Assembly (NCBI RefSeq): GCF_004366815.1
Contig: NZ_SORI01000008.1
Span: 1 to 64,000 of the forward strand
DNA: 64,000 nucleotides
Reading direction: 5' to 3'
Source of the DNA: Aminivibrio pyruvatiphilus
GTDB lineage: Bacteria; Synergistota; Synergistia; Synergistales; Aminobacteriaceae
Shown: in pieces, positions 43,361 to 47,709 of the stretch
Numbering within the stretch: position 1 is the first letter of the stretch
How the letters are laid out: each line of letters opens with the position of its first letter
The notes under the pieces: generated by a model
What the model was told of the DNA's origin: nothing
Database searches by the model: none
What the model saw: the letters and a program-made list of their open reading frames with translations, nothing else
Made by a program: the position numbers and the translations under genes

Positions 43361-45349
43361 CTACGAGAGATGGCGCTTCTCCTCCACGATTTCGTAGGCT
43401 TCGAGAATGTCTCCTTCCTCGAAATCCTGGTAGTTGGACAGGCTGATCCCGCACTCGTAGCCGGCCGCCACTTCTTTTGCGTCGTCCTTGAACCGCCTGA
43501 GGTTTGACAGTGAGCCGTCCCAGAGGACGATGCCGCCCCGAATGAGCCGGGCCTTTGCATTCCTGCGGATAACGCCTTCCAGAACGTAGCTTCCCGCGAT
43601 CTTTCCCGCCTTGGGAACCTTGATGACCTGCCGGATTTCGGCCTGGCCGATGGTGTTCTCCTTGATGGTGGGCTTGAGCATGCCCTCGAGGGCCGCCTTC
43701 ACGTCGTCGATGGCGTCGTAGATGATAGTGTAAAGCCGCACCTGGACACCCTCGGATTCTGCAACTTTTTTCGCGTTGGCGTCGGGGCGGACGTTGAAGC
43801 CGATGATGACAGCGTTGGAAGCCGAGGCAAGCATCACGTCCGATTCGGCGATGCGGCCGACGCCCCGGTGCACGATATTGATGCCCACTTCGTTGGTGGC
43901 CATCTTCTCCAGGGATGCCGCGAGGGCTTCGCTTGACCCCTGGACGTCGCACTTGAGGAGGAGGTTGAGCTGGGGGATGTCCCCTTCCTTGAGCTGGGAA
44001 TACAGATCCTCGAGGCTGAGTTTCCTGGGACCGCCCTGCTGGGCGTTTCTCAGATCCTGCTCCCTGGAGCTCAGGGCATCCCGGGCTATCCTCTCGTTCT
44101 CCACGGAAGTGAACACCTCGCCGGGCTGAGGTACGGTCGCCAGGCCGAGAATCTCCACGGGGGTGCTCGGTCCGGCGCAGTCGATCATTTTTCCTTCCGA
44201 GTCGATCATGGCCCGGATTTTGCCGCAGGCAGAGTCAAAAAGAAGGATATCGCCCTTGCAGAGGGTTCCTTCCTGAACAAGAACGGTCGCCACGGGGCCC
44301 TTGCCCTTGTCGAGTTTGGCCTCGACGACCACTCCCCGGGGTTTCACCGTGGGGTCGGCCTTCAGCTCTTCTATCTCCGCCACGAGGAGAATCATCTCGA
44401 GGAGTTGGGGCATTCCCTGGCCGCTCTTTGCCGAAACTTCCACCATGATGGTATTTCCGCCCCACTCCTCGGGAGCGAGACCGACGTCGGAGAGCTGCTG
44501 GCGGACCCTGTCCGGCTTGGCGGCAGGCTTGTCGACCTTGTTGATGGCGACGATGATGGGAACTCCCGCCGCCTTCGCGTGGTTGATGGCCTCCCTGGTC
44601 TGGGGCATCACACCGTCGTCCGCCGCCACCACGAGGATGGCGATGTCCGTCGCCTGGGCTCCCCTGGCCCGCATGGAGGTGAAGGCTTCGTGCCCCGGAG
44701 TGTCGAGGAAGACGATCTCCTTTCCCTCGTGCATGACGGTGGAAGCTCCGATGTGCTGGGTGATGCCGCCGGCTTCCCGGGCGGTGATGTTTGTCTTCCG
44801 TATGAAGTCGAGCAGAGTTGTCTTGCCGTGGTCGACGTGCCCCATGACGGTGACGATGGGGGGCCTGGGTTCCATGTGATCCCCGTGGAACCGGGGTCTC
44901 TTGATGACGGTGCAGGTTCCGTCGGCACCTTCGTTTTCAGCGTCGTCTTCGCATGCCATGGTGAGAACCACGTTATAGGCGTCCTGAAGAACCTTCAGGC
45001 TCTTTTCGTCCACCGGGCTGTCCGCCGGGACCATCAGGCCGGCGGAGATAAGGCACTTCACCGCTTCCGCAGGGGAGATGCCGATCAGCTGGGCAACCGC
45101 CTTGACGGTAGATCCCTTTGAAACCTCGTAAGAATCTGTTTTTATCACGCTGCGCTCCTCTTCCTTTTTTCCAGGCCCTTCCGTGCCGGAAGCTCCCCGG
45201 AGGGACTCCTCCACCAGCTGGGCGATATCGTTGTCAATGGAACTCATGTGGCTCTTTACGTCGACCCCGAGGTCGATCAGGATATCAAGCAGTTCCTTAT
45301 TGCTTTTCCCGAGCAGTTTGGCCAGTTCATATACCCGGATTTTACTCAT
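43361..45349 (-). CDS. infB: Translation initiation factor IF-2
   Basis: This ~662-residue GTPase positions initiator tRNA. The N-terminal IF2N domain ([20 protein letters not shown]) is short, with no long repeat-rich linker. G1 is GHVDHGKTT near residue 172, G3 DTPGHEAF and G4 NKVDKP. The ATG at 45347-45349 follows AAGGGGGAG and overlaps the L7Ae-like gene by 8 nt. Confidence 0.97.
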
Positions 45350-45680
45350 TAACGTCTCCCCCTTCCGCAAGCAGTTGCGAAATAGAACGTGCAAAGCCGC
45401 TGCGTAACGGTAAAGCAACAACCTTCACATTTCCTGAACCGATAGCCGCAGAGAGTTCGCTTCCGGAAATATCCGGCAGAACAGTGATCGTGCTTTTTTC
45501 TGCAAACCTCCCATTCTGGAGGGATCGATAGAAAGACGATTCCCCTTCTCCTGCAAAAAGCACCAGGAGAGTTTCTCCCCGGGCCAAGGAAGATTTTACT
45601 ATATCCTGACCAATTTGCAGGACGTTTGCTCTTCGTGCCATGCCGAAAACCGAGAGCAGGGCTTCCTTGCGGGTTTTCAC
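45342..45680 (-). CDS. YlxQ-like ribosomal protein L7Ae-family RNA-binding protein
   Basis: This 112-residue protein has the L7Ae/L30e fold pattern: GMARRANVLQIGQDIVKSSL near the start and LLVLFAGEG as the second strand. The family binds kink-turn RNA and is found between ylxR and infB. The start is a GTG at 45678-45680 that overlaps the ylxR stop (GTGA). Its role is unknown. Confidence 0.85.
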   Translation of the reverse strand: MKTRKEALLSVFGMARRANVLQIGQDIVKSSLARGETLLVLFAGEGESSFYRSLQNGRFAEKSTITVLPDISGSELSAAIGSGNVKVVALPLRSGFARSISQLLAEGGDVNE

Positions 45681-45961
45681 TGTCCTTTTTCCTCCCCGCC
45701 TTCAGCTTCGGCAGCCATTCCGAGAAGGGTGTCGTACACCCCGGCGTCCACTTTCACCCTGAGGGCTTTTGAAAGGGCATCCCTTTTCCGGGCGCTGAGA
45801 ATGCATTCTTCCTTGAGGCACACATAGGCGCCCCTTCCCGGAAGCCTGCCGGAAGGGTCAACGGACACCTCTCCCGCAGCATTGCGGGCTATTCTCAGCA
45901 TCTCCCTCTTGGGTGATTCCTCCCTGCATCCGACGCAGGTCCTGGGCCGCCGCCGCATCAT
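45677..45961 (-). CDS. ylxR: YlxR family (DUF448) RNA-binding protein
   Basis: This 94-residue protein has the DUF448 signature RTCVGCREESPKREMLRI and GRLPGRGAYVCLKEEC. YlxR proteins are RNA-binding or nucleoid-associated factors encoded in nusA-infB operons. It follows nusA by 10 nt. Confidence 0.92.
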   Translation of the reverse strand: MMRRRPRTCVGCREESPKREMLRIARNAAGEVSVDPSGRLPGRGAYVCLKEECILSARKRDALSKALRVKVDAGVYDTLLGMAAEAEGGEEKGQ

Positions 45962-45971
45962 GGCCGTCCCT

Positions 45972-47075
45972 CTATTCAGCGCCGCTGTCGTCTATGATGT
46001 CCTGGAAAATATCGTGGAGTGTCGGCATTCTCTCCGGTTCCAGGGCATTGATGTCGATCTTCCATCCCGTGAGCCTCGCAGCCAGGCGCACGTTCTGCCC
46101 CGCCTTGCCGATGGCGAGGGAAAGCTGGTCAGGCCGCGAAAAGACGGTGACGGCTTTTTCCTGCTCGAGAATGGGCTCGATCCTGACTATCTTCGCAGGC
46201 GAAAGGGAGTTCCGGATATACTGGAGGGGATCGCTGTTCCAGATGATCACGTCCACCTTTTCGCCGCAGAGCTCCTTGCTTATGGACTTGATCCGGGCCC
46301 CGTTGTTCCCCACGCAGGCTCCCACCGGATCCACGTTCATGTCGAGGGTCTGGACCGCCACCTTGGCTCTCGCCCCGGACTCGCGGACGATGTTCTTGAT
46401 CTCGATGACCCCTTCCTGGATCTCGGGAACCTCGAGTTCAAGAAGCTTTCGCAGCAGGCCGGGATGGGTCCGGGAAACGACGATTCTCGGTCCCCGTGTT
46501 GTCTGACGGACGTCAAGGAGGTAAAACTTGAGCCTTTCGCCGGGAATGTACTTTTCGTTCACGATGCGCTCTTCCCTGGGGAGGATTGCTTCAGTGCGGT
46601 CGTTGAGGCGGATGAGCACCTGGTCGTTCTCCGATTTGAAGACGACGCCGGTAACGAGGTCCCCCACCCGGTCGGAGAACTCCTCGAAAATGATCTGCCG
46701 CTCGGCATCCTTCAGCCTCTGGATGATGACCTGCCTGGCCGTCTGGGCAGCAATCCTGCCGAAATTCTCGGGATTTTTCTCTATGCGGATAAAATCCCCC
46801 TCGGTGACGTCCACGAACCCCTGGGCCTGGGCATCGGCAAGGGAGATTTCCGTGTCCGGCGACACGACATCCGCCACGATGTGCTTCACTTCGCAGATGG
46901 AGATATCGCCGTTTTCCGTATCGATATGGACCTCCACATCCTGGTTCCCGCCCTGGTATTTTTTATATGCCGAGATAAGGGCCGCCTCAAGGCTGGAAGC
47001 GATAACTTCCTGGGACAGTCCCCTCTCTTTCGTGATCTGGGCCAAAGCGCGGACGAAATCACGCCCAAGCTGCAT
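45972..47075 (-). CDS. nusA: Transcription termination/antitermination factor NusA
   Basis: This 367-residue protein has the N-terminal RNA-polymerase-binding domain, an S1 domain (~130-200) and two KH domains (VGACVGNNGARIKSI near 240, LAIGKAGQNVRLAARL near 320). It lacks the C-terminal acidic repeats of the E. coli protein, as do most non-proteobacterial NusA proteins. The ATG follows the rimP stop without a gap. NusA stimulates pausing and hairpin-dependent termination, which matters for the terminator upstream of rimP. Confidence 0.96.
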   Translation of the reverse strand: MQLGRDFVRALAQITKERGLSQEVIASSLEAALISAYKKYQGGNQDVEVHIDTENGDISICEVKHIVADVVSPDTEISLADAQAQGFVDVTEGDFIRIEKNPENFGRIAAQTARQVIIQRLKDAERQIIFEEFSDRVGDLVTGVVFKSENDQVLIRLNDRTEAILPREERIVNEKYIPGERLKFYLLDVRQTTRGPRIVVSRTHPGLLRKLLELEVPEIQEGVIEIKNIVRESGARAKVAVQTLDMNVDPVGACVGNNGARIKSISKELCGEKVDVIIWNSDPLQYIRNSLSPAKIVRIEPILEQEKAVTVFSRPDQLSLAIGKAGQNVRLAARLTGWKIDINALEPERMPTLHDIFQDIIDDSGAE

Positions 47076-47591
47076 TTATGAACTCCTCCTTTTGTCCTGC
47101 TTTTCCTGTTCCTCATATACAAGGTTGCCTTTTGTAATTATTTCAAAGGGGATATGGACCGTTTCATCCTCTTCCGTACCTCTGCCGGTCTCAAGCTGCA
47201 GAAGAACCGCCCCGTCCTCCCCCACGTCCAGGAGAAGGCCCGTAAACCGTTTCTGTCCGCTTATTTCCTGCCGGGTCTTGAGCTTGATCTTCTTCCCCCT
47301 GAACTTCCGGTAATCCTCCGGCGAAAAAAGAGGCCGCTCGATCCCCGGGGAACTCACCTCAAGGTAGAACTGGCCGCGGATATACTCCCCGTTTTCGTCC
47401 AGAAAGCGGTTGAGCGACCTGGAGACCGTCTCGCAGTCCTTGACAAGAATGCCTCCGAGAGAATCGATATAGACCCTCAGGATTGCCCGCTTCTCTTCGT
47501 TTCCGAGGGTAATGCCGACACATTCGTAACCGAGACCCTCCACAATTTTCCGGAGGGCGCTGAAATTATCTTTTCCCCTGTCTTCGCCCAT
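47076..47591 (-). CDS. rimP: Ribosome maturation factor RimP
   Basis: This ~171-residue protein assists 30S assembly. The family segments GYECVGITLGNEEKR, LRVYIDSLGGI and YLEVSSPGIERPLF are present. The ATG at 47589-47591 follows GGGAGAG; an in-frame ATG at 47642 would put the terminator hairpin inside the coding region and is unlikely. It is the first gene of the rimP-nusA-ylxR-L7Ae-infB-ylxP-rbfA-nrnA-truB-ribF operon. Confidence 0.93.
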   Translation of the reverse strand: MGEDRGKDNFSALRKIVEGLGYECVGITLGNEEKRAILRVYIDSLGGILVKDCETVSRSLNRFLDENGEYIRGQFYLEVSSPGIERPLFSPEDYRKFRGKKIKLKTRQEISGQKRFTGLLLDVGEDGAVLLQLETGRGTEEDETVHIPFEIITKGNLVYEEQEKQDKRRSS

Positions 47592-47616
47592 GCTGATCTC
47601 TCCCTGCAGGCCTATT

Positions 47617-47648
47617 AAAAAACAAAGAGTGGGGGAACCCACTCTTTG
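47617..47648 (-). terminator. Intrinsic terminator in the rimP-nusA leader (candidate attenuator)
   Basis: CAAAGAGTGGG and CCCACTCTTTG form an 11-bp perfect stem with a 4-nt loop (47638-47648, 47623-47633), followed by six T residues (47617-47622) on the minus strand. It lies after the promoter at 47680-47709 and 26 nt before the rimP start. Confidence 0.88.
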
Positions 47649-47679
47649 AAAAAAACTCTCCGAAGAAACACCACATTGG

Positions 47680-47709
47680 AGTATAGCACATTATTGGGAA
47701 TAAATACAA
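47680..47709 (-). promoter_or_regulatory. Promoter of the rimP-nusA-infB operon
   Basis: On the minus strand TTGTAT (47704-47709) and TATACT (47680-47685) are 18 bp apart with a TGC extension before the -10. The predicted start is near 47673, so the leader includes the terminator hairpin. Confidence 0.7.

Follow-up and report, generated by a model that had tools for sequence, protein, structure and literature searches.

NusA has been linked to the control of its own operon in B. subtilis and E. coli. Naville and Gautheret 2010 (PMC2965389) described an element that ranked first in frequency among their predicted attenuators, and named it the rimP-leader. It is a conserved G-rich/C-rich stem followed by a T-stretch; its general form has no visible antiterminator, and NusA was suggested as the effector. 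In B. subtilis, NusA is reported to autoregulate through NusA-stimulated termination in its own leader (Mondal et al. 2016, as related in a 2025 review, PMC12288461). The help of NusA is given where the hairpin or the U-tract is suboptimal, and the NusA-dependent terminators of B. subtilis often carry distal U-tract interruptions (PMC8060035). In E. coli, rimP is preceded by the terminators t1 and t2, NusA affects the expression of its own operon, and the operon is cold-induced (PMC6511841).

The DNA analysed here, referred to as the window, is a 64-kb stretch that contains a rimP-nusA-infB operon. By its sequence, the site just upstream of this operon is a Synergistota form of the already described rimP-leader attenuators. 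It shares with them the G-rich 5′ arm, the C-rich 3′ arm and the T-stretch, the conserved stem sequence, the absence of a large riboswitch-like element and NusA as the proposed effector (PMC2965389). The GGG...CCC stem and T-stretch that mark the rimP-leader take the form GAGUGGG...CCCACUC with U6 in the window. The rimP-leader is placed in the 5′ UTR of rimP-nusA-infB, 4–130 nt before the gene, and here the stem ends 31 nt, and the T-run 25 nt, before the rimP ATG. The rimP-leader stem is specific to rimP and no general terminator sequence; here the exact stem pattern, GAGTGGG-N3-8-CCCACTC, occurs once in the 3.35-Mb genome of the window, at rimP. Some features differ from the published description. 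The lower-case positions of the published motif GGGc...gCCC vary in Synergistota leaders; unlike in the general form, a long, strong stem is followed in the window by a U6 free of interruptions, and some Synergistota relatives have a weak 5′ hairpin that overlaps the terminator foot and possibly competes with it.

The B. subtilis nusA attenuator belongs to the same operon, and Bacillus leaders carry a AGAGTGGG...CCC[AG]CTCT hairpin, but their U-tracts contain interruptions, and more leader follows the hairpin than in the window. The E. coli metY-rimP-nusA-infB leader likewise has terminators before rimP and autoregulation involving NusA; in contrast to E. coli, no tRNA gene precedes the operon at the window locus. 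An Rfam scan of the window region with gathering and E-value thresholds returned no match, nor did a direct search of the genome with the RF01770 (rimP) model, whose gathering score is 47 bits and which matched E. coli alone among 14 control genomes. What is new here is the documentation of the element across a phylum, together with a lineage-specific hairpin, P1. The rimP-leader attenuator is thereby extended to the Synergistota, and NusA feedback becomes testable in a deep branch beyond Firmicutes and Proteobacteria.

Predicted promoter, terminator and operon in the window

All the genes at the locus lie on the minus strand, in the order guaB, a small ORF, the promoter-like sequence, the hairpin with its T-run, rimP, nusA, ylxR, a ylxQ-like gene and infB. 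guaB (49413–47938) is directly upstream of the rimP leader region, and the small ORF, of 62 codons (47908–47720), lies between guaB and the rimP promoter. The first gene of the operon, rimP (47076–47591, ATG at 47591, 171 aa), was identified by its Pfam RimP_N and RimP C-terminal SH3 domains. It is followed by nusA (45972–47075, 367 aa), which encodes the proposed effector and scores 389 bits against TIGR01953 NusA, exceeding the cut-off. Three ORFs, spanning 43361–45961, lie 3′ of nusA: ylxR (45677–45961), matched by Pfam YlxR, and a ylxQ/L7Ae-like gene (45342–45680) and infB (43361–45421), both assigned by position and recognisable sequence.

An initial annotation had described a TGn-extended promoter, TTGTAT-N18-TATACT, followed by an 11-bp perfect hairpin and six Ts before rimP, and both its coordinates and its description proved right. 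The predicted promoter (47680–47709, minus strand) consists of a −35 site TTGTAT at 47709–47704, an 18-nt spacer, a TGC extension at 47688–47686 and a −10 site TATACT at 47685–47680. It is backed by conservation of the −10 site, whose spacing from the hairpin is kept in relatives. Transcription is predicted to start at about 47674–47672, which would place the hairpin some 25 nt from the 5′ end of the transcript. The short untranslated stretch between the predicted start and the hairpin (47649–47674, minus strand) includes UUUCUUCGGAGA. A simple sigma-70 scan of the window did not list the rimP promoter; TTGTAT-N18-TATACT scores within one match of the cut-off or below. Because the cut-offs of the scan were thus too strict for the window promoter, promoters in the leaders of relatives were scored by a custom script.

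The terminator hairpin (47648–47623, minus strand) has the DNA sequence CAAAGAGTGGG-TTCC-CCCACTCTTTG, giving CAAAGAGUGGG-UUCC-CCCACUCUUUG in the RNA, and is followed directly by the T6 (U6) tract at 47622–47617. The hairpin, which carries the rimP-leader motif, is identified by a mechanical scan, by its sequence, and by conservation and covariation in relatives, which also keep a T-rich tract. With 11 perfect pairs, it was the longest stem found by the mechanical scan. Only three perfect stems followed by T5 reach 7 bp in the window, and the rimP-leader stem alone reaches 9 bp; in dinucleotide shuffles of the whole window the mean number of such sites was 0.13 for stems of ≥7 bp and 0 for those of ≥8 bp. 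The rimP-leader hairpin is the strongest intrinsic terminator of the 64-kb window. Over a wider region of 116 nt the folding energy was ordinary (z −0.64), the signal being the hairpin itself.

Strong intrinsic terminators are scarce in the window as a whole. Since three such stem-plus-T5 sites serve 64 kb, the genome may depend on other routes of termination.

Conservation within and beyond the Synergistota

Of 83 Synergistaceae genomes, 80 yielded a RimP match; 80 leaders, from 20 genera, were readable. In all 80, including those of five genomes of the window's own genus, rimP was preceded by the hairpin or a recognisable variant, each followed by a T-rich tract. The same arrangement was present in each of 40 leaders from 11 other Synergistota families, one of them with the variant GAGCAGG...TCTGCTC. 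Loss of the hairpin in close relatives had been named as an observation that would refute attenuation, and no such loss was seen in these 80 and 40 readable leaders. A TATAAT-like −10 site with at least 5/6 matches was found upstream of the hairpin in 77/80 family leaders, and the predicted start lay 5–57 nt before GAG in 77/80, mostly 19–32 nt. In the other families an extended TGn −10 was present in 39/40 leaders, with the start 14–44 nt before the hairpin. In L035, L074 and L081 the predicted start is far from the hairpin, and a few of the automatic promoter picks in relatives, these among them, are probably wrong.

The stem is conserved both as a structure and as a sequence. In 25 representative leaders the 11-bp stem had 95.6% standard pairs, compared with 44–66% when slid. 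Two-sided changes were found at 6 of the 11 stem pairs, in 29 cells over these 25 leaders, a number that none of 500 shuffles reached. At the foot of the stem, pairs change in a compensated manner (among others A-U to G-C and C-G to A-U), while the GAG/CTC of the upper stem is nearly constant in sequence and present in 119/120 Synergistota leaders. Leader RNA beyond the hairpin is unconserved between genera.

Six leaders of genus g10 (L021, L024, L044, L048, L053 and L062) keep GGAG[UC]GGG in the 5′ arm and often have a U opposite its middle base in the 3′ arm (CCCUCUCC). The internal mismatch recurs, with the sequence retained despite the lost pair.

Scans of genome contigs found no relatives when a single RimP protein was the query, and found named loci when a RimP alignment was used. 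Outside the Synergistota, the same hairpin lay upstream of rimP in 47 of 58 leaders, nearly all of them from Firmicutes, in the form AGAGTGGG or GGAGTGGG...CCC[AG]CTCT. Many of the 58 have a TATAAT-like hexamer that places the start about 25–30 nt upstream of the hairpin, and distal U-tract interruptions are present in the Firmicutes leaders among them. The exact pattern was found in 19 of 28 named genomes outside the Synergistota, mostly as one copy. In genomes other than that of the window, the motif, where present, occurs about once per genome, and a reversed control pattern gave almost no matches. A Neobacillus genome has a second copy of the hairpin motif (G193:C1:1842832-1842850), about 17 kb from its rimP copy.

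The 120 Synergistota leaders give dense support to a steady promoter-to-hairpin spacing and, beyond pairing, to a stem sequence that is kept across phyla. This constancy of sequence suggests that the hairpin may be specifically recognised.

A possible lineage-specific P1 pairing

In genus g10 the RNA begins with UUUCAUG, which is able to pair with CGUGAAA at the terminator foot. This P1 pairing comprised 87% standard pairs, compared with 44–52% when slid, and the observed value was reached by 2 of 5000 shuffles; when the 17 distinct arm pairs alone were counted, the result was weaker, with 109 of 5000 shuffles reaching the observed value. Pairing of the foot with upstream RNA was compared with its pairing with shuffled RNA, which gave a combined z of −2.5 for the genera of the family and −2.6 for the remaining families. 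These values were driven by g7, g9, g10, g11, g18, f5, f8 and f12. P1 is favoured in g10, f5 and f8 and is borderline in g7, g9, g11 and g18. In f10 a P1 arm CGCC pairs with GGCG, which is the terminator foot in some f10 leaders, and f10 as a whole was not significant. The arms of P1 differ by lineage (UUUCAUG/CGUGAAA, CUUCGAG/CUUGAGG, CGCC/GGCG and UUCAG/CUGGA) and pairing is kept.

The leader of the window itself (L002) showed no significant pairing with the terminator foot (p 0.20), and P1 was not significant in the window's genus, except in G003, nor in f2, f3, f6, f7 or f9. In L020, L028 and L034 the hairpin comes 5–10 nt after the predicted start, which leaves no room for P1. A universal P1 antiterminator was rejected, P1 being unsupported in the window's genus overall and in these five families. 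It is conceivable, if on balance doubtful, that the rimP-leader works as a two-state switch in several lineages of the Synergistota. P1, formed by the first 10–15 nt, would then pair with the foot of the 5′ arm and compete with full formation of the terminator, while a conserved protein would recognise the nearly invariant GAGUGGG stem. If so, the two-state leader would be an antiterminator variant of an attenuator that was described without one.

A further potential pairing was seen in the g10 leaders L049, L055, L069 and L077, between the RNA just 3′ of the U-tract (UUGUUAUG) and the 5′ terminus (CAUGACAA). This possible third helix could form only after read-through.

Probable attenuation by NusA and other readings

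The promoter-proximal terminator probably attenuates rimP-nusA-ylxR-ylxQ-infB. RNA polymerase would start about 25 nt upstream of the hairpin, and each initiation would lead either to a ~55–60 nt RNA released at the U-tract or to read-through into the operon, the fraction of read-through setting operon expression. NusA, which the operon encodes, would most likely raise termination at the hairpin, giving a negative feedback loop that requires no ligand-binding RNA domain. Negative feedback is the simplest account because NusA stimulates intrinsic termination and its gene lies downstream. We infer termination at the hairpin in vivo from the sequence, and the role of NusA as effector in the Synergistota leader by homology with the leader for which NusA-stimulated termination is reported in B. 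subtilis (PMC12288461). The attenuator reading of the initial annotation gains support from the comparison, in that the hairpin is kept (80/80 family and 40/40 other-family leaders) 3′ of promoter-like sequence whatever the upstream gene. Its NusA interpretation is also strengthened, since the element is a rimP-leader, homologous to the NusA-regulated leader of B. subtilis. A caution concerns the strength of the site. Termination here may need NusA less, and may be high even at low NusA, because the window hairpin has 11 perfect base pairs and an uninterrupted U6, unlike the suboptimal targets of B. subtilis (PMC8060035). Read-through may hinge on another factor.

Such a factor could be cold-shock proteins that melt the hairpin, feedback by RimP, or the lineage-specific P1, and control of the attenuator by one of these in place of NusA is unlikely. 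The near-invariance of GAG/CTC suggests sequence-specific recognition by some factor, and a non-NusA effector would also fit the cold induction of the E. coli operon; Bae et al. in 2000 reportedly found antitermination by the CspA family in the E. coli metY-rimP-nusA-infB operon. Control through P1 would draw on the pairing of the g10 5′ end with the terminator foot and on the signals in f5 and f8, but it is opposed by the lack of significance in the window's genus (G003 apart) and in f2, f3, f6, f7 and f9, by the weaker g10 result with distinct arm pairs, and by the leaders in which the hairpin follows the start too closely.

Two further readings would take the hairpin out of rimP control altogether or make that control secondary. 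The initial annotation had proposed that the same hairpin may also end the guaB transcript, which is possible, given the position of guaB directly upstream and the failure to find a second terminator-like site between guaB and the promoter. This cannot be its main role, because the hairpin is also kept at loci that lack an adjacent guaB: a guaB match in the fetched upstream DNA (~1.5 kb) was found in only a minority of family loci, and many loci without a match keep the hairpin. It is thus highly improbable that the hairpin is simply the end of a guaB (or guaB-small ORF) unit, insulating rimP, with its place after a promoter-like sequence incidental. Hairpin and promoter spacing persist without an upstream guaB match across the Synergistota and other phyla, and a plain insulator needs neither a constant stem sequence nor a fixed distance from the −10 site. 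A role as guaB terminator only was rejected on synteny and is largely refuted by the comparative data. It is barely credible that the terminated ~55–60 nt RNA is the main product and acts as a small regulatory RNA, rimP expression being of secondary importance. In favour, every initiation should yield either the short RNA or the operon mRNA, and the stem sequence is unusually constant, but RNA outside the hairpin is unconserved between genera and the element stays tied to rimP. We therefore retain attenuation of the operon, most likely through NusA, as the preferred reading.

The small ORF between guaB and the rimP promoter encodes a small acidic protein of 62 aa (MQGAKVFERN...DEWWPEFISDFCL). 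It had no match in Pfam, NCBIfam or the plasmid collection, and it is conserved at the same position in five or more of the family's genera (g1, g2, g6, g8 and g18).
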